From Rhizobium sp. NXC14 (GTDB taxonomy: Bacteria > Pseudomonadota > Alphaproteobacteria > Rhizobiales > Rhizobiaceae): DNA of 64,000 nt. The first letter of the stretch is position 1. Every line of letters starts with the position of its first letter. Shown here piece by piece: positions 12,803-24,836 of this stretch. The notes under the pieces were generated by a model. The model was not told the DNA's origin and did no database searches. It saw nothing but the letters and a program-made list of their open reading frames with translations. Both the position numbers and the translations under genes were made by a program. The DNA lies in contig NZ_CP021030.1 of the NCBI RefSeq assembly GCF_002117485.1, forward strand, positions 2,607,001-2,671,000. Reading direction: 5' to 3'.

Positions 12803-13438
12803 TCAGAACTCCACGCCGGGCTGCCCTTTGATGCCGGAACGAAACGGGTGTTTGACGAGTTCCATCTCCGTCACCAGATCGGCGATCTCGATCAGCTCTT
12901 CCTTGGCGTTGCGTCCTGTCAGCACGACATGCGTCATGGCGGGTTTCTCATTCTTCAGGAAGGCGACGACATCGTTGATGTCGAGATAATCGTAGCGCAG
13001 CGCGATGTTGATCTCGTCGAGCAGCACCATGGAATTGCGTTCGTCGCGGATCAACTCCTTGGCCTTTTCCCAGGCCGCCGAGGCGGCGGCGATGTCGCGG
13101 GCCCGGTCCTGCGTTTCCCAGGTGAAGCCCTCGCCCATCGTGTGGAACTGGCAGAGATCGGAAAAATGCTTCTCGATCAGGTCGCGCTCGCCGGTCCACA
13201 TCGCGCCCTTGATGAACTGCACGACGGCTGACGGCTTGCCGTGCGCGATGTGGCGGAAGATCATGCCGAATGCGGCTGACGACTTGCCCTTGCCCTTGCC
13301 GGTATGGACGATGATCAAGCCCTTGCCGTCCGTCTTGGTCGCCATGATCTTGTCGCGCGCAGCCTTCTTCTTCGCCATCTTCTCGGCGTGGCGCGCATCA
13401 TCCTTGGCCGCTTCGTTTTCCAGGATCTCGTCGCTCAT
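12803..13438 (-). CDS. cobO: Corrinoid adenosyltransferase CobO
   Basis: A 211-residue CobO/BtuR-type ATP:corrinoid adenosyltransferase. The P-loop reads HTGKGKGKSSAAFG near residue 45, followed by the family blocks VVQFIKGAMWTGE, FTWETQDR, LLDEINIALRY and VVLTGRNAKEELIEIADLVTEM. The N-terminus is a lysine-rich helix. It adds the upper adenosyl ligand after cobalt insertion. It is the last gene of the riboswitch-led operon; its ATG shares one base with the cobN stop (TGATG). Confidence 0.95.
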   Translation of the reverse strand: MSDEILENEAAKDDARHAEKMAKKKAARDKIMATKTDGKGLIIVHTGKGKGKSSAAFGMIFRHIAHGKPSAVVQFIKGAMWTGERDLIEKHFSDLCQFHTMGEGFTWETQDRARDIAAASAAWEKAKELIRDERNSMVLLDEINIALRYDYLDINDVVAFLKNEKPAMTHVVLTGRNAKEELIEIADLVTEMELVKHPFRSGIKGQPGVEF

Positions 13439-16400
13439 CAGTGCACCTCATTCAGTTGCGTGGCTGCCAGGTCGAACCGGGCCGAATTGCTGCGCGGCGT
13501 CCAGAGCCCGCGATCGATCGCTTCGCGCAGCCGCTCTCGCATCTCGTCGAATGCCGCCGGGTTCTTCTCGATCATGAAGTCACGCACGCCTGGATCGGCG
13601 ACGAAGGCCCGAAAGACCGCCTCGAAATGATGCGCGCCGACCGCGCCCGTCGTCGCCGCGAAGGCGAAGAGATAATCGACGGTGGCGGCGATCTCGGCCG
13701 CTCCCTTGTAGCCATGGCGCATGACGCCCGTTATCCATTTTGGATTGACCACGCGCCCGCGCACGACGCGGCCGATTTCCTCTTCAAGCGCGCGGATCAC
13801 CGGTCGTTCGGGCCTGGAATGATCGTTATGATAGATTGCGGGGCGTTTACCGGTGAGTTCCTCAGCCGCCGCCGCCATGCCGCCTTCGAACTGGTAGTAG
13901 TCGTCACTGTCGAGCAGGTCATGCTCGCGATTGTCCTGGTTCTGAATGATAGCTTGCACAGAGCGCAACCGCTCCTCGAAAAGGCCGCGTTCGGCCCTGC
14001 CTTCCTCGCCGGCGCCATAGGCATAACTTCCCCACACAAGATAGGCCTCGGCAAGATCGGCACGCCGCTCCCAGCCCTTTTCATCGATCAGTGCCTGCAA
14101 CCCCGCGCCATAGGCGCCCGGTTTCGAGCCGAAGATGCGATAGCCCGCCCGCTTCGCCGCCGTGTTCTCATCGAGCCCAGCCGCAGCGAGCCGCGCGGTC
14201 TCGCCGCGCATTCGCCCGGCAATCGGATTATCCGCCGCGTCCTCTTCGAGCGCGCCGACAGCGCGGATCGCCTTGTCGAACAGCGCGATCTGCTCTGGGA
14301 AGGCGTCGCGGAAGAAACCGGATATGCGCAGCGTCACGTCAACCCGCGGTCGCCGCAGCAGAGCCGGCGGAATGATTTCGTAGCCGGTGACACGCCGTGA
14401 GGCCATGTCCCAGACCGGCTCGACGCCGATCAGCGCTAAGGCCTGAGCAATATCATCGCCGCCGGTGCGCATGTTGGACGTGCCCCAGGCTGTCAGCCCG
14501 AAGGAGACAGGCCATTCGCCGTGATCCTGCACGTATCGGCGGATCAGCAGTTCCGCGGATTTCTTGCCGAGTTCGTAAGCAGCCGCTGTCGGCACCGCCC
14601 GGCTGTCGACAGAGTAGAAATTCCGCCCGGTTGGCAAGACATCCGGCCGTCCGCGCGTCGGCGCACCGGATGGGCCGGGCGGCACGAAACGGCCGTCGAG
14701 GCCCCGGAGCAGGCTGGCGATCTCGGCCGGACCACAGGCAAGGATGGATGGCTTGAGACACGCTTTGATTTCGTCCAGCACAGCTCTGGTTTGGACCCAG
14801 AGGGTTGGGCACGCCATTTCACCGGAAACGAGCTTGGCGGCGAGCAGTTCAATGCGCTCGACGGTGTCACCGTTACTGCGCCAGGGGGCGTCGAGGATAT
14901 CTGCGAGGACAGCCGGACGCGGGCCAGTCCAAAGAGTCGCCATATCGCAATCGAGTGGGTCGAACGGACGCTGAAGCGCGCGACTCCCCTCCTCCCCGGC
15001 GGGGAGAAGGTGGCCCGAAGTGTCGGATGAGGGGACCGCAGACTCCGCCTCGCTTGCGCTCAGCCGCTCGCTCCTACCGTCGCTCGCCCCCTCATCTGTC
15101 CTGACGGACATCTTCTCCCCGCTGGGGAGAAGGGGGAAACTCAACCCAGCATCCCCCGCAATCGCCCGCTGCAAACTCGCATCGCCACCCACTCCCAGCC
15201 CGCGCGGTACCCGCGCCAGCGCCATGGTGAGATCCGTCAGCAACCGCCCCTCCGGCGACACGCCGAAGACATGCAGCCCATCGCGGATCTGCATCTCCTT
15301 CAGATCGCAAAGATAGGCGTCGAGCTTCTTCAGCGCCTCACCTTCGCTCTCGCCTTTCGCAATCCCCGCATCCCGATCCAGCCCGATATCGGTGACGAGA
15401 TCGAGGATCTGGCGGCTGAGCAGCCGAATGCGGCGGGGATCGCCGCCCGAAGCTTCGTAATATTCATCGACCAGCGCCTCTAGATCCTTGAGCGGCCCAT
15501 AGCTCTCGGCCCGCGTCAAAGGCGGCGTCAGGTGATCGATGATGACTGCGGCGGTGCGGCGCTTGGCCTGGGTGCCCTCGCCCGGATCATTGACGATAAA
15601 GGGATAAAGATGCGGCAGCGGTCCAAGGATCGCTTCCGGGTAGCACGTCTCCGACAGCGCCAGCGCCTTACCCGGCAGCCATTCAAGATTGCCATGCTTG
15701 CCCATGTGAATGACGGCATCGACGCCATATTCGCGCCGCAGGAAAGCATAGAACGCGATATAGCCATGCGGCGGTACGAGATCCGGCGAATGGTAGCTGT
15801 CCTTTGGATCGATATTGTAGCCGCGCGCCGGCTGGATGCCGATCAGGACACCGCCGAAGCGGGCGAAAGGCAGGGCGAAGACGCCATCGCGAAAATAGGG
15901 ATCGTTCTCTGGCTCGCCCCAGCGGGCCGTCACCTCCTCTTGAATCTTTTTGGGAAGCGATTCCAGGAAATCTTTGTAGCGACTGAGCGAAAGCGCCTCG
16001 CGGATAAGCCGGCCGTCATGTCCCGAATTGGTCGGCCCCTCCATCAGATGCTGGATCAGCGCGTCACCATCGGCCGGAAGATCGGCGACTGGATAACCCG
16101 CGGCCGCCATTGCCCGAAGCACCTCGATGCTGCCGGCCGGCGTGTCGAGCCCGACGCCGTTGCCGAGCCGGCCGTCGCGGTTTGGATAATTGGCCATCAC
16201 GAGAGCGATGCGCCTCCTATTGGCTGGCGTCCCGCGCAGCCGCGCCCAGTTGGCGGCCAGTTCCGCCGTGTAACGCACCCGACCGGCATCGGGCATGCTG
16301 GCTACGATGTTCGCCTCGACAACAGCGTCGTAACGCGCCGCCGTCTTGAAGGACACCGCCCGCGCCAATATTCGCCCATCGACTTCAGGCAGCGCCACAT

Positions 16401-17418
16401 TCATGCCGAGGTCGCGCGCCGACAGACCCTGCGACGAAGCCACCCAGGCCTCCCTCGACGAAGCCGACAGGATTGCCTGCAGCACGACGGCGCCATCCGC
16501 CTCCAGCACCGTCGGTTGCCGGTCCGCGCCCGGTGCGGAGACCGCAAAGCCCGTTGTGTTGATGACGACATCCGGTTTCAACGCCGAAAACACGCTCTCG
16601 AGAACGCCTGTCGAAACGGGATCCTTTAGGCTGTAGGCAAAGACCGGCAGCGGCCGCAGGCCAAGCGCGGCCAGGGCCTCGATCAGCGCCTCGACCGGCC
16701 CGGTCTCGCCGCTCTGGACTAGGGCACGGTAGAAGCTGATGGCGACGATGGGGGACGTGGGTTCGAATTCCACCTCTTCTGTCGAGCTTGGTGTCACACG
16801 CTTGACGGACGACGTTGGCGCGACATGCGAACCGACGACCCGCCGCCACTCCTCGACCCCGATCGCCCCTCGCCCCGGCCACCAGATGCCCGCCTTCATC
16901 AGCGGCACTGCCGGCGCCGGCTTCTCCGCCGCTGACAGCATCGCCGAAGCATAGGCGAGAAAATCCCGCGCATTGGTGTCGCCGCCTTCGATCAGGTAGG
17001 CCCACAGCCCGTTGAGATCGTCGAGGTCAACATTGGAGAAAGGAACCAGCCCGGCATCCGGCTTGGCATCGCCAGGCAATACCGCAATCTTCACGCCATT
17101 GCGGGCAGCAACGGCGTGCAGCGCCTCCAGCGCATAATGGAAATAGCTGGCGCCGCCGAGCGCACGCACGACGATCAACTTGGCGTGCCGGGCCGTTCGC
17201 TCGACATAGGTATCGACCGACATTGGATGCTTGAGGCTCATCAGATTCGCGAGCCTCAGCGAATGCGGCATCCCTTCACACTCGTGATAGGCGGCAGCAA
17301 TCGCGGCGAGTTCGGTGTCGGCAGCCGAAAGAAACAGGATATCGCCGGGCGACTGGCCGAGGTCGATCGCCTCCTCGCCGTCGCTGATCGTTCCCTGCTG
17401 GGCAAGAAGCAGATGCAT
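13438..17418 (-). CDS. cobN: Cobaltochelatase subunit CobN with in-frame repeat insertion
   Basis: A 1326-residue large subunit of the aerobic ATP-dependent cobaltochelatase (CobNST), which inserts cobalt into hydrogenobyrinic acid a,c-diamide. Family stretches include VIHMGKHGNLEWLPGKALAL, QARGYNIDPKDSYHSPDLVP and, near the C-terminus, YQFEGGMAAAAEELTGKRP and NPKWITGVMRHGYKGAAEIA. CobN proteins are usually near 1275 residues. The excess of about 50 lies at roughly residues 761-811, where the DNA is a palindromic repeat (14984-15135) that stays in frame. The inserted peptide is rich in Ser, Glu and Ala and falls between conserved blocks (GDAGL before, FDPLDCDMATLW after). The gene sits between cobW and cobO; cobS and cobT are not in the window. 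Confidence 0.95.
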   Translation of the reverse strand: MHLLLAQQGTISDGEEAIDLGQSPGDILFLSAADTELAAIAAAYHECEGMPHSLRLANLMSLKHPMSVDTYVERTARHAKLIVVRALGGASYFHYALEALHAVAARNGVKIAVLPGDAKPDAGLVPFSNVDLDDLNGLWAYLIEGGDTNARDFLAYASAMLSAAEKPAPAVPLMKAGIWWPGRGAIGVEEWRRVVGSHVAPTSSVKRVTPSSTEEVEFEPTSPIVAISFYRALVQSGETGPVEALIEALAALGLRPLPVFAYSLKDPVSTGVLESVFSALKPDVVINTTGFAVSAPGADRQPTVLEADGAVVLQAILSASSREAWVASSQGLSARDLGMNVALPEVDGRILARAVSFKTAARYDAVVEANIVASMPDAGRVRYTAELAANWARLRGTPANRRRIALVMANYPNRDGRLGNGVGLDTPAGSIEVLRAMAAAGYPVADLPADGDALIQHLMEGPTNSGHDGRLIREALSLSRYKDFLESLPKKIQEEVTARWGEPENDPYFRDGVFALPFARFGGVLIGIQPARGYNIDPKDSYHSPDLVPPHGYIAFYAFLRREYGVDAVIHMGKHGNLEWLPGKALALSETCYPEAILGPLPHLYPFIVNDPGEGTQAKRRTAAVIIDHLTPPLTRAESYGPLKDLEALVDEYYEASGGDPRRIRLLSRQILDLVTDIGLDRDAGIAKGESEGEALKKLDAYLCDLKEMQIRDGLHVFGVSPEGRLLTDLTMALARVPRGLGVGGDASLQRAIAGDAGLSFPLLPSGEKMSVRTDEGASDGRSERLSASEAESAVPSSDTSGHLLPAGEEGSRALQRPFDPLDCDMATLWTGPRPAVLADILDAPWRSNGDTVERIELLAAKLVSGEMACPTLWVQTRAVLDEIKACLKPSILACGPAEIASLLRGLDGRFVPPGPSGAPTRGRPDVLPTGRNFYSVDSRAVPTAAAYELGKKSAELLIRRYVQDHGEWPVSFGLTAWGTSNMRTGGDDIAQALALIGVEPVWDMASRRVTGYEIIPPALLRRPRVDVTLRISGFFRDAFPEQIALFDKAIRAVGALEEDAADNPIAGRMRGETARLAAAGLDENTAAKRAGYRIFGSKPGAYGAGLQALIDEKGWERRADLAEAYLVWGSYAYGAGEEGRAERGLFEERLRSVQAIIQNQDNREHDLLDSDDYYQFEGGMAAAAEELTGKRPAIYHNDHSRPERPVIRALEEEIGRVVRGRVVNPKWITGVMRHGYKGAAEIAATVDYLFAFAATTGAVGAHHFEAVFRAFVADPGVRDFMIEKNPAAFDEMRERLREAIDRGLWTPRSNSARFDLAATQLNEVH
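14984..15135. repeat. RIME-like palindromic repeat inserted in the cobN coding sequence
   Basis: The element is bounded by two palindromes of the form CTTCTCCCC-N-GGGGAGAAG, around 14990-15009 and 15112-15131, and contains GATGAGGGG paired with CCCCTCATC. Positions 15001-15034 match 23301-23334, a non-coding copy, at 33 of 34 bases. The structure resembles the Rhizobium-specific intergenic mosaic elements (RIME1), though the name is from memory and not checked. Here it is translated as part of CobN without breaking the frame. Confidence 0.85.
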
Positions 17419-18993: not shown

Positions 18994-19346
18994 GCCCGAA
19001 TATTCCTCTGAGGAGGCGTGCCGCTGCAGCTTGTTCTAGTTTTAACTTTATGAGCCACGGTAGCCAAAACTTTGCTTGGGAAAGCCGCGCCACCCCATTC
19101 ACTTCCCTCATTCCTGTGCTTGTCACAGGAATCCAGCTTGCCCAAGTCCTTGGGCACGGAAGGCTCATTCGTTGCCTGCGCATAGTTAATCACGGCGCGG
19201 ACGCGCCGTGGCCGGATTCCTGTGACAAGCACAGGAATGAGGGAGGAAAGGAAGGCGCGTAATACGCAGACATAACCTGCAGGCGACGAACCGGCACCTC
19301 TCATACGCACCACCAGAGGCGGCGCTGAATTCGTTCTTTCAGCCAA
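18990..19346 (-). CDS. Possible leader ORF linking the cobalamin riboswitch to cobP
   Basis: An open frame of 118 codons starting with TTG at 19346, five bases after a strong GGAGG (19352-19356), and ending in a 4-base ATGA overlap with cobP. Its middle is encoded by the palindromic repeat at 19104-19243 ([11 protein letters not shown] and later [10 protein letters not shown]), so the peptide itself is unlikely to be a functional enzyme. No domain was recognised. Other start codons in the same frame exist, for example the ATG near 19304. Its value, if translated, would be to couple riboswitch-controlled initiation to cobP. It may also be a chance open frame in a GC-rich leader. Confidence 0.35.
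19104..19243. repeat. Mosaic palindromic repeat in the cobP leader
   Basis: Arms 19104-19134 and 19213-19243 are perfect inverted copies over 31 bases. Each arm also contains its own hairpin (TTCCTGTGCTTGTCACAGGAA). Between the arms are two more hairpins: GCCCAAGTCCTTGGGC near 19140 and CACGGCGCGGACGCGCCGTG at 19191-19210. Such mosaics of palindromes are typical of dispersed intergenic repeats in rhizobia. In the cobP transcript it would fold into a long stem between riboswitch and coding region. Confidence 0.85.
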
Positions 19347-19351
19347 AACAA

Positions 19352-19406
19352 CCTCCGTGCTGGCAGCGGGTCTCTTGCCCAGGTTTGGGCTGTTCGCCCG
19401 GCACGG
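19352..19406 (-). promoter_or_regulatory. Candidate riboswitch expression platform sequestering a Shine-Dalgarno
   Basis: Just 3' of the B12 box, in transcript orientation, CCGTGC (19406-19401) can pair with GCACGG (19360-19355), and the latter runs directly into GGAGG (19356-19352). Pairing would mask that Shine-Dalgarno. This fits translational control by the cobalamin aptamer, but the ligand-dependent alternative structure was not modelled. Confidence 0.5.
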
Positions 19407-19770
19407 AAGGCAGGTCTCCTGGCTCGCGGTTATCGGCGGCGATCGGGGGCGAACCGGAAGCCCGGTCGCCCCTGATCGTGCCAGCGGATCTGCCTCGCCT
19501 TCCCGGCTGCCTCGGTGAAAAGGTGGACGATTCGTAGAGTTAGAGGCGTCCGACCCCGGTTGATCACCATGCATCTCCAGTGGCTTTTCCGGCATGTCGC
19601 CCATCCCGCCCGCCTGCACTATTACGGTTAGGCCGGAAGAGGTCCGATGCCGGATGGAAGACCCTGACCGCTCTACAGTCGCGGGGTCGGCTGTGATGAA
19701 GGCGCCCGATGTGGGTCCGCCCCGTCACATTCCCTTTTCATCCGGAAGGCGAAATGCCGATCCGGAACCA
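19405..19770 (-). promoter_or_regulatory. Cobalamin riboswitch upstream of cobP-cobW-cobN-cobO
   Basis: Read on the minus strand, the conserved class elements occur in order: GGTTCC (19769-19764), GATGAAAAGGGAA (around 19740-19728), ACAGCCGACCCCGCGACTGT (around 19697-19678), AAGCCACTGG (around 19590), GGGAAGGCGAGG (around 19500) and the B12 box AGCCAGGAGACCTGCC (19424-19409). The aptamer is longer than most (about 365 bases) owing to extended peripheral loops. A further hairpin (AACCATCCG with CGGATGGTT, 19767-19793) lies at its 5' end. It should reduce expression of the operon when adenosylcobalamin is abundant. Confidence 0.93.
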
Positions 19771-20013
19771 TCCGTTATTCCTCGGATGGTTAGGCAAGCC
19801 GGCGGGTGAAGTCAACCGACCTTCGCCACCGCCTTCCCGCTGGACTGCGCGAAAGGCCGGCCAACACCACTGACCCTACCGGAAGTATCGTCTTTTATCA
19901 GCGGCTTACGTCATGAATGTTTGATGTGGCCGTCGGCTTTTCGCCGCAATTGCGTTGCAAGGCGACTGCACCTCCGCCCTTGACCCGGCCTCTCCTCGCC
20001 TAGTTGTCTAGCC

Positions 20014-21809: not shown

Positions 21810-23084
21810 CTAAGAAGCGGCGCCGGCAAGCCTGTAAACGTCGGCTCTCTTCGAGACGCCGCGCAGCTCGAAAGCGCCGAGATAGTCGCAGGGCACAGCG
21901 CAGGTCGCTGCGAAGCTTTCCGACAGCAGCAGGGGCTGCTCAAGCGTTCCGCACAGCTTCTCGAGCCGCGACGCCTCGTTGACCGCCCTGCCGATCACGG
22001 TGAAGTCCAGCCGGCCTTGGGCGCCGACATTTCCGTAGAAAACCTCGCCGAGATGCAAGACGACATCAATCCCGATATCGGGGCCGCTATTCAGCGTTCG
22101 CTCGCGATTGAGCTCCTCGTTTGCCCTCAACAGGTTCTGTGCCGAAGCCAATGCGGCCTTGCAGGCCTTTTGCGGATTCTCAGCGTCCGTCGGAAAGATC
22201 GCCAGCACGCTATCGCCCATGAACTTGAGGATCTCGCCGGAATTTTCCTCGACGTGCCGGTCGATCAGCTCGAAGTGCTCGTTGAGAAAGCCGACGATCT
22301 CCCCCGGCTGATACGCCTCGGTCAGCGCCGTGAAGTTGCGGAGGTCGGCAAGCAGGATGGCGGCGTCGATGGAGCCGCCCATTCCCCTGCGGGTTTCACC
22401 GGCAAGGATGCGCGCGCTCGTCCTGGCGCCGGTATAGACGGCGAGGATATCGGTCGCGGTCTTGGATACCGCGACACGGTAAGCGGCAAGCCCCAGCGCT
22501 GGGAACAGTTCATCGATGATCGCCAGCTGATCATCTGAAAATCCGCCCCGAGCGTCACTCGTCAGAGAGAAACCGAGCCCGCGCAGCGCGACTTCCTTCG
22601 GGAACTCGAAAAGAGTGACCACATGGTCCGTGCCGCCGGCAAGCGCAAATTGGTGGAGCTCGCCGTAGTGGAGACCCTCGCCTTTCGCCAGGTTCCACCG
22701 CCCCGTCTTCTCACCGCGGTTCAGAAGAAAGAATATCGGCGTCTTCTCGAAGTTGCGCTCGGTCTCGCTGCCGTGCTCCGCATTCTCGAGAACGGTCTCA
22801 CCGCCCCGCATGAAATTGGCGGCGATGCCGCGATACATAGGATGTAGGGACGGCATGCGGATGCTTGCCCGCCAGATCGGAAACCCGTCCGCGATCAACC
22901 GTTCACACAGGCCGGCGACGAGATCGCCGATATGCTCGCTGGTGATTCCCTGCTCTATAATCCACTGAATATGATCTTTAATTTTGAAAACCTCCGCATG
23001 AGGTGGGGAACTTGGAATGGCGTCACCATCGAGGTCGGCGCCGGGAACAACAGGACAGGCGCCGAAAGGCCTAGCCGCACACAC
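21810..23084 (-). CDS. Class III adenylate/guanylate cyclase
   Basis: A protein of up to 424 residues. The C-terminal half is a class III cyclase domain: AAILLADLRNFTALTEAY with the metal-binding Asp, GEILKFMGDSVLAIFP, DVVLHLGEVFYGNVGA and FTVIGRAVNEASRLEKL. The N-terminal half (about residues 35-200) is a soluble region with no recognised sensor motif, though similar rhizobial cyclases share it. The start is uncertain: homology-like sequence begins near VFKIKDHIQWIIEQ, just after a GGAGG at about 22995, with no standard start codon at ideal spacing, so the far upstream ATG is listed. It faces the ClC gene tail to tail with a 6-base gap. Confidence 0.85.
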   Translation of the reverse strand: MCAARPFGACPVVPGADLDGDAIPSSPPHAEVFKIKDHIQWIIEQGITSEHIGDLVAGLCERLIADGFPIWRASIRMPSLHPMYRGIAANFMRGGETVLENAEHGSETERNFEKTPIFFLLNRGEKTGRWNLAKGEGLHYGELHQFALAGGTDHVVTLFEFPKEVALRGLGFSLTSDARGGFSDDQLAIIDELFPALGLAAYRVAVSKTATDILAVYTGARTSARILAGETRRGMGGSIDAAILLADLRNFTALTEAYQPGEIVGFLNEHFELIDRHVEENSGEILKFMGDSVLAIFPTDAENPQKACKAALASAQNLLRANEELNRERTLNSGPDIGIDVVLHLGEVFYGNVGAQGRLDFTVIGRAVNEASRLEKLCGTLEQPLLLSESFAATCAVPCDYLGAFELRGVSKRADVYRLAGAAS

Positions 23085-23194
23085 GACTTTTTAGCCTGCT
23101 TCGCATTGCGATACTACTCCCGCGAGAATGATGTGATAGAGAATTGGATACACAGTATAGGTATGTGCCTGTGGCCCCCGTATCTGCCGCCGGC

Positions 23195-23335
23195 ATCTTC
23201 TCCCCGCCGGGGAGAAGGGAATCGCGGCTATGTCCTGCCCTCTTGAAGCGTTTGCGATAGAAACGAAGGACGGCAACTTGCTCCCCCTCTTCTCCCCATC
23301 GGGGAGAAGGTGGCCCGAAGGGTCGGATGAGGGGG
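23195..23335. repeat. RIME-like palindromic repeat between cyclase and cobQ
   Basis: This lies in the 282-base gap between the cyclase start and the cobQ stop. It has two palindromes, CTTCTCCCCGCCGGGGAGAAG near 23198-23218 and CTTCTCCCCATCGGGGAGAAG near 23289-23309, and ends with a block (23301-23334) that matches the copy inside cobN at 33 of 34 bases. It could form a terminator-like hairpin for cobQ. No gene was seen in the gap. Confidence 0.85.
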
Positions 23336-23366
23336 CTGCACGGCACGCCCTTCACTGCCCTTGCGC

Positions 23367-24836
23367 TCAGCAAATTCTCCCGACCTCCAGCAACTCACCC
23401 AACCACCGCGCATCCAGGCAGCGCTCCAGTTCCCCTGCAACCTCGTCAAGCGCCCGCTCCACGCTCTCACGGTAGTTCCCCTGTCCGCCGGAAAGCCCGA
23501 AGCTCTCCAGCAGCCGGGCGCGGTAAGCGTCACTGCCGAACAGCCCGTGCAGATAGGTGCCCATGATCCGGCCGTCCGCCGAAACCGCTCCATCGGGGGC
23601 GCCGTCGATGATCGCGGAAGGCCTGACACAATCCGGGCCGCGGGTGATGCCGAGATGGATCTGGTAGCCGGCAAGCAGCACGTCATATTCGGTCGAGCGG
23701 GCATGGCTGTTGCGCACGGTCTTCTCCGGCGCCATCTCGGTCTCGACGTCGAGCAGCGCCAACCCCGGCGTCTCGCTCGTGCCGCCCTCGATGCCGCGCG
23801 GGTCATGCACCATACGACCGAGCATCTGGTAGCCACCGCAAATGCCGATCACCCGTCCGCCGCGCCGGACATGCGCCGCAAGATCGCGGTCCCAGCCTTG
23901 AACTCTGAAATCGGCGAGGTCTGCTATCGTCGATTTCGACCCTGGAAGAATGACGAGACCGGCATCGGCAGGCAACCGTTCGCCCCCTCGGACGAAGACC
24001 AGCTCGACATCCGCCTCCGCCCTCAGCGGATCGAGATCGTCGAAATTGGCAATGCGCGGCAGCATCGGCACGGCGATCTTCAGCGCCCCGGTCCGGCTCC
24101 TGGCAAGCCGTTCGAGCACGACCGAATCTTCGGCCGGCAGGCGCGTGGCAGCCTGCAGCCACGGCACGACGCCGAAGCAGGGCCAGCCGGTGAAGCCTTC
24201 GATCGCGCGAATCCCGTCATCGAAGAGCGAGACGTCGCCGCGGAACTTGTTGATGAGATAACCTGCGATCATCGCTCGATCGCCCTCATCGAGAATCGCC
24301 TGCGTGCCGACCAGCGAGGCAATGACGCCGCCGCGATTAATATCGCCGACGAGCACGACGGGCACGCCCGCCTTCGTCGCAAACCCCATATTGGCGATAT
24401 CACCGGTCCTAAGATTGATTTCCGCCGGCGAGCCGGCACCCTCGACGACGACGAGGTCGGCGCCGGCAGACACATTTTCGAAGCTTTCGAGCACGGCGCC
24501 GAGCAGTTGCGGCTTCAGCCGCTGGTAATCCCGCCCCTTCGCCTGCCCGAACACCCTGCCCTGCACGATGATCTGGCTGCCGTTTTCCGATTGCGGCTTG
24601 AGCAGCACCGGGTTCATGTGCACCGACGAGGGCGTGCGTGCAGCCATCGACTGCAGCCACTGCGCCCGGCCGATCTCACCGCCGTCATCGGCGACCGCAG
24701 CGTTGTTCGACATATTCTGCGGCTTGAACGGCCGCACGGTGAGCCCGGCATTTGCCGCAAGCCGGCAGAGCCCCGCCACCAGCACCGTCTTGCCGACATC
24801 CGAGCCGGTTCCCTGCAGCATGATCGCTCTTGCCAT
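23367..24836 (-). CDS. cobQ: Cobyric acid synthase CobQ
   Basis: A 489-residue ATP-dependent amidotransferase that amidates the b, d, e and g side chains of adenosylcobyrinic a,c-diamide. The N-terminal dethiobiotin-synthetase-like domain starts MLQGTGSDVGKTVLVAGLCR, then KPQNMSNNAAV and VVEGAGSPAEINLR. The C-terminal glutaminase domain has the nucleophile Cys in VIGICGGYQMLG and the catalytic His in MGTYLHGLFG. It stands alone, 4.4 kb from the riboswitch operon, and no riboswitch was seen upstream of it. Confidence 0.95.
   Translation of the reverse strand: MARAIMLQGTGSDVGKTVLVAGLCRLAANAGLTVRPFKPQNMSNNAAVADDGGEIGRAQWLQSMAARTPSSVHMNPVLLKPQSENGSQIIVQGRVFGQAKGRDYQRLKPQLLGAVLESFENVSAGADLVVVEGAGSPAEINLRTGDIANMGFATKAGVPVVLVGDINRGGVIASLVGTQAILDEGDRAMIAGYLINKFRGDVSLFDDGIRAIEGFTGWPCFGVVPWLQAATRLPAEDSVVLERLARSRTGALKIAVPMLPRIANFDDLDPLRAEADVELVFVRGGERLPADAGLVILPGSKSTIADLADFRVQGWDRDLAAHVRRGGRVIGICGGYQMLGRMVHDPRGIEGGTSETPGLALLDVETEMAPEKTVRNSHARSTEYDVLLAGYQIHLGITRGPDCVRPSAIIDGAPDGAVSADGRIMGTYLHGLFGSDAYRARLLESFGLSGGQGNYRESVERALDEVAGELERCLDARWLGELLEVGRIC

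Follow-up and report, generated by a model that had tools for sequence, protein, structure and literature searches.

How does a palindromic repeat come to lie inside the coding sequence of the cobaltochelatase subunit CobN in Rhizobium sp. NXC14, and what becomes of the protein predicted to include it as amino acids? We addressed this question in a 64,000-nucleotide stretch of the NXC14 genome (hereafter the window) and in the cobN genes of the genus. The reading that we favour, with a probability of roughly 0.75, is that two CobN loops predicted to be disordered hold repeats that are repeatedly exchanged, tolerated, and kept by selection on the reading frame.

A palindromic repeat in the reading frame of CobN

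The gene lies on the minus strand in an open reading frame without an in-frame stop, which scores 1706 bits against the NCBIfam CobN profile TIGR02257 (cut-off 822) and is the only CobN match in its 6.69-Mb genome. The nearest named CobN relatives come from Rhizobium, and the host is thus not Rickettsia. The surrounding cobalamin cluster comprises an adenosyltransferase gene, cobW, a bifunctional adenosylcobinamide kinase gene and cobQ, together with a cobalamin riboswitch (19392–19787). This riboswitch was the only family returned by an Rfam scan of the window, with none at 14984–15135. Close to it lies a 34-base inverted repeat (19104–19137 and 19211–19244; 97% complementary, 73 bases between), perhaps of another palindrome family. 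The features of the locus are as follows.

13438–17418, minus strand: cobN, encoding the cobaltochelatase subunit CobN (1326 aa, insert included; open reading frame, profile match)
14984–15135, minus strand: palindromic repeat of class A, with an open frame corresponding to CobN residues 762–812 (repeat matches, fold)
15087–15135, minus strand: first arm in coding order, with the hairpin CTTCTCCCC/GGGGAGAAG, the hairpin TGTCC/GGACA and then GATGAGGGGG (sequence and fold)
15035–15086, minus strand: middle of the element, flanked by the arms (fold)
14984–15034, minus strand: second arm in coding order, the inverted counterpart of the first (fold)
23194–23340, plus strand: non-coding copy of the repeat, 3′ of cobQ (repeat comparison)

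The element measures 152 bp: a 52-bp middle is enclosed by two arms of about 50 bp each, in inverted orientation. Its folding energy as single-stranded DNA is −45.6 kcal/mol, compared with −31.2 ± 3.0 kcal/mol for 200 shuffled versions, none of which folded as well (z = −4.74). At least 89 pieces of the same genome match it at E ≤ 0.001, a lower bound obtained from 40 of the 86 first-look candidates and with the two strands of a palindrome counted separately. Its 34-base core (15000–15033) is identical at 33 of 34 positions to 23300–23333, within a copy located between an open reading frame lacking a family match (21810–23084) and cobQ (23367–24836). The preliminary description had reported an in-frame palindrome in cobN and had traced its origin through this core to a non-coding copy. 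The open frame, the fold and the many genomic relatives bear out the former; the core match is exact and, together with the 89 pieces and the fold, makes the origin from the genome's own repeat family clear. The element at 14984–15135 is thereby a dispersed palindromic repeat of a rhizobial genome. It also resembles a MITE, having inverted repeats and a length too short to encode its own transposase. A check for a target-site duplication, made by aligning two relatives (G107 and G004), yielded an ambiguous short repeat at the junction. Inserts of the same class occupy the same place in CobN of five relatives (G107, G109, G058, G116 and G117), which makes the assembly artefact considered in the preliminary description unlikely for the window.

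Two sites and four repeat classes across the genus

In an alignment of 109 CobN proteins, only two internal stretches fall below 85% occupancy over at least 8 columns.

14968–15150, minus strand: site 1, variable stretch between SLQRAIAGD and FDPLDC, residues 757–817, holding the repeat described above (protein alignment, genome survey)
16753–16857, minus strand: site 2, second variable stretch, residues 188–222, without an element here and filled in the near relative G107

We surveyed 148 genomes of the genus, of which 143 were readable at site 1 and 126 at site 2; the five unread at site 1 had no anchor (G134, and G123, G049, G128 and G114, where a contig ends 38–195 bases away). Repeats were assigned to classes by unit score at a threshold of 20, the top score among 400 shuffles per class being 18; class A is the type found in the window. 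Site 1 holds a repeat in 102 genomes (A 10, B 30, C 33, D 29; remnants of 48–93 bases account for 5 of them) and none in 41, and site 2 holds one in 51 (A 14, C 33, D 4) and none in 75. Since every site 1 insert of at least 100 bases in the 143 genomes has a recognisable unit, the classification dropped no decayed arms. Among 80 named loci, which overlap with the 148 genomes, site 1 carries A in 5, B in 16, C in 31, D in 11 and no insert in 17, and these loci extend the inserts beyond Rhizobium to Sinorhizobium/Ensifer, Ciceribacter, Agrobacterium vitis, Peteryoungia and Phyllobacterium. In the comparison of relatives proposed in the preliminary description, some CobN proteins lack the segment, but most are filled, by other repeat classes. 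The single case first noticed is one instance of a wider phenomenon.

Classes A, C and D follow a common plan (a CTCCCC/GGGGAG hairpin, a TGTC/GACA hairpin and a G-run), and class B has its own unit; A and B are unlike in both unit and length. Across whole genomes, class B contributes 114 pieces in G004, 48 in G018, 39 in G053, 52 in G100, 22 in the window's own genome (G000) and 0 in G091 and G026, both of which have class D in CobN. Class C contributes 34 pieces to the own genome, and class D 23–50 to each of seven genomes and 4 to G075, whose site 1 is empty.

A solved CobN structure (9uk9) aligns up to residue 760, resumes at 818 and lacks both inserts. In a predicted model, weak overall (pLDDT 65, pTM 0.53), the insert and site 2 fall below pLDDT 50, and the insert is modelled as neither helix nor strand. 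Both loops are predicted to be disordered.

A cobN tree built after removal of both sites (FastTree, one gene, 143 rows, with 28 of the 140 inner branches open) requires at least 51 state changes at site 1 and at least 32 at site 2; the count does not separate gain from loss, and some of these changes need therefore not be insertions. Within the window's five-species clade, site 1 is of class A in G000 and G107, of class B in G004 and G018, and reduced to a remnant in G020. Site 2 carries a whole class C element in G107 and none in G000 and G004. In G020 and G003 it holds deletion remnants with the frame kept, and some insert losses are in-frame deletions. A short cobN frame of 772 aa in G134 (L231:724-3042) extends from the gene start as far as site 2, crosses a single class C element and continues directly into the part that follows site 1. 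The cobN part between the sites is absent from the assemblies of G134, G049 and G114, and the short gene in G134 reflects either recombination between two inserts or a collapsed draft assembly.

Insert sharing, orientation and selection at the two sites

The class C element of G107 has at least 14 CobN copies in eight genomes, itself included, at 84–100% identity, and matches CobN inserts of other species at 84–88%. Among the matches listed outside CobN in the same genomes, the best full-length one reaches 77%, with single arms at 95–100%. The higher identity of the CobN copies argues against fresh insertion from elsewhere as the sole source, and the CobN inserts would appear to be partly a lineage of their own. 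Middles are common to both sites: clustering of those from 104 of the 153 element-bearing sites (the remainder failed the search pattern) placed 8 site 1 and 9 site 2 rows in one cluster, and the two middles of G115 are 90% alike.

Sharing of alleles by long-tract homologous exchange was considered and rejected, within the limits of resolution, as flank divergence was not lower in pairs with similar inserts. The ratio of flank to rest-of-CobN divergence was 0.98 in 71 such pairs versus 1.01 in 3775 pairs at site 1, and 1.01 in 9 versus 1.10 in 1016 at site 2. Some class A pairs with the window showed 0.26–0.33 near the site versus 0.44 far from it, and the same stretches were equally low in pairs without a shared insert. 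Exchange via very short tracts is possible.

Orientation was compared among middles from 73 class C/D sites of at least 140 bases, other such sites having failed the pattern. In the largest class C family, 17 of 22 related middles run one way and 5 the other (223 links, no contradictions; 9 versus 4 at site 2 alone). Two smaller class C families are likewise mixed (7 versus 3 and 5 versus 3), a class D family divides 22 to 1 (G143), and a further family of three rows is uniform. Flipped alignment exceeded direct alignment at site 2 of G035 and G067 (88% versus 75%; middle 75% versus 38%) and in the pairs G034/G030 (93% versus 76%), G001/G076 (92% versus 73%) and G147/G097 (88% versus 79%); G143 and G082 at site 1 are a weaker case (80% versus 71%). 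The tree requires 4 orientation changes on 13 rows at site 2 and 1 on 9 rows at site 1. Inverted cases are undercounted at site 1, as the G011 insert there, outside the pattern set, matches the inverted G034 directly at 95%. Close relatives with opposite orientations would reflect either inversion through the arms or renewed insertion. After an in-place flip the frame stays open in 18 of 19 site 2 inserts and in 24 of 45 site 1 inserts, rows that are partly related and hence non-independent, versus 987 of 2554 random CobN pieces.

In pairs with middles at least 60% alike, arms diverge by 1–7% at each of codon positions 1, 2 and 3, middles by 10–38% and flanking four-fold sites by 28–38%. The lack of a systematic difference between codon positions indicates that arm conservation points to DNA rather than protein; copying from other repeats or a hairpin requirement may account for it. 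Class A hairpin cores occupy two codon phases at site 1 and three phases at site 2 (three overall). Those of classes C and D share one phase in 74 of 96 cases at site 1 and in all 44 at site 2; the uniformity at site 2 may reflect a small number of insertions with later exchange.

These patterns permit a more specific proposal, which we regard as tentative, with odds somewhat below even: the two sites would be landing pads for an invertible, exchangeable cassette, which recombination between arms flips and the pads swap, while DNA copying keeps the arms alike and the peptide drifts. If so, either strand of the element would code for CobN residues. Less probable, and in our judgement unlikely, is a single old, inherited insertion per place whose arms and middle were overwritten by gene conversion, the class changes being conversions. 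The constant place of insertion, the conservation of arms at all codon positions, the middles common to both sites and the single class C/D phase at site 2 would fit such a history, but empty alleles stand beside filled ones within one clade, class B is unlike class A in both its unit and its length, and class A occupies three codon phases when both sites are counted.

A scripted check of insert length and stop codons counted 97 of the 102 site 1 inserts and 49 of the 51 site 2 inserts as in frame and stop-free. The site 1 exceptions are G039, G045, G037 and G025, which lose the frame within or at the element, and G122, whose frame stays open across the element and is broken further downstream; those at site 2 are G002 and G071. 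In four loci, L199 (G039), L206 (G045), L237 (G037) and L240 (G025), cobN is split into two frames at the site 1 insert. Across pairs with 2–25% insert divergence, dN/dS at site 1 was 0.86 for class A inserts, 0.74 for B, 1.01 for C and 0.72 for D; at site 2 it was 0.58 for A and 0.59 for C. The remainder of CobN gave 0.06–0.11 in these pairs. The frame is therefore preserved and the peptide barely so: the inserted peptide evolves almost without constraint.

This bears on a functional role, in which the peptide or an mRNA hairpin would tune folding, translation or assembly of CobN. The presence of inserts in many lineages, arms far slower than four-fold sites and a small hairpin whose mean stem in 34 variants is 5.2 bp, versus at most 4.4 bp after shuffling of the inner bases (outer-base pairing being favoured by the search pattern), speak for it; yet a nearly unconstrained peptide read in several phases and both orientations, the 41 genomes with an empty site 1 and the solved structure without either insert leave it improbable. 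A frame-breaking artefact or pseudogene, to which the 5 and 2 broken frames and the four contig ends beside site 1 might point, is scarcely credible given intact frames in 97 of 102 genomes, strong purifying selection on the rest of CobN and inserts in many separate assemblies.

Under the reading of tolerated, frame-selected repeats, a dispersed, non-autonomous palindromic Rhizobium repeat would sit in a disordered CobN loop, and repeats of several classes would be inserted, exchanged, inverted and deleted again and again because the two loops tolerate such DNA. Insertion would stem from repeat mobility, inversion would make use of the inverted arms, and the likeness of the arms would be maintained at the DNA level, for instance by copying from other repeats. 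The open frame would be the main thing that selection enforces; frame keeping and selection on the flanks suggest that the insert is translated, and the inserted residues are probably retained in finished CobN and harmless. Two loops in up to 148 genomes, with four insert classes in either orientation and empty alleles as controls, provide a natural experiment on the uptake of new residues by a large enzyme. Whether proteins simply tolerate palindromic repeats thereby becomes testable, and protein selection is separated from DNA conservation inside one coding sequence.

Repeats in other proteins and in known systems

Among 30 repeat loci examined in the own genome, some from one place, inspection recognised two further conserved proteins with in-frame repeats, RibD and UvrB. 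In RibD (L254:710-2017) the in-frame element is of class C. Visual inspection of the 30 best RibD loci showed it in 29, apparently as one class at one place, and the RibD frame is shorter in many of the 148 genomes; the pattern looks like that left by one old insertion and counts against the favoured reading. Matches to the RibD insert comprise 68 proteins, 60 with RibD domains and 8 without, the latter including a precorrin-3B synthase of Mesorhizobium and SRP54-type domain proteins. UvrB (L019) contains half a class A unit in a C-terminal extension past the profile; REPs have been reported in uvrB of Rickettsia conorii (PMC3733652). DUF559 genes adjoin class A repeats at two separate places of the own genome (L010:878-2296 and L009:1052-1741), and the DUF559 protein is a possible candidate for the repeat mobiliser.

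Intragenic invertons are inverted repeats within a gene whose inversion rewrites residues; in CobN, by comparison, the change of orientation is seen as a difference between species. RIME and the A, B and C palindromes are described as dispersed, intergenic palindromic repeats of rhizobial genomes (PMC2573895). The CobN element is likewise rhizobial, dispersed and palindromic by that description; it differs in lying inside cobN, the RIME-type position being that of the 23194–23340 copy. Intragenic REPs of the GTAG/CGTC families are short palindromes and dimers within genes, often repair genes including uvrB, and recB of two Xanthomonas species carries one at about the same site; the portion of that account available to us contains no description of class exchange at one place across a genus (PMC3733652). 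Unlike REPs with a RAYT, the repeats occur here in a genome with no match to the Y1 transposase profile PF01797, in a search whose control was positive in 5 of 14 genomes.

A close parallel, already drawn in the preliminary description, is with the Rickettsia palindromic elements (RPEs), repeats of about 100–150 bp from several families that are tolerated in frame in conserved genes (PMC2229807, PMC10969869). It holds in kind: the CobN inserts are also palindromic, in frame and of several classes, and such inserts occur in the conserved genes for CobN, RibD and, in its tail, UvrB. The peptide encoded by RPEs is conserved (PMC10969869), whereas in CobN class A is read in three phases, class C in both orientations, and dN/dS is 0.6–1.0. 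In-frame palindromes are thus already known from Rickettsia and other bacteria (PMC2229807, PMC10969869, PMC3733652), and our search, within the portions of the literature it covered, returned no account of repeated, multi-class, two-site and two-way repeat use in one housekeeping protein. Relative to that literature, such turnover appears new: a single Rhizobium protein takes four classes at two places, one class occurs in more than one phase, and one insert lies either way round.
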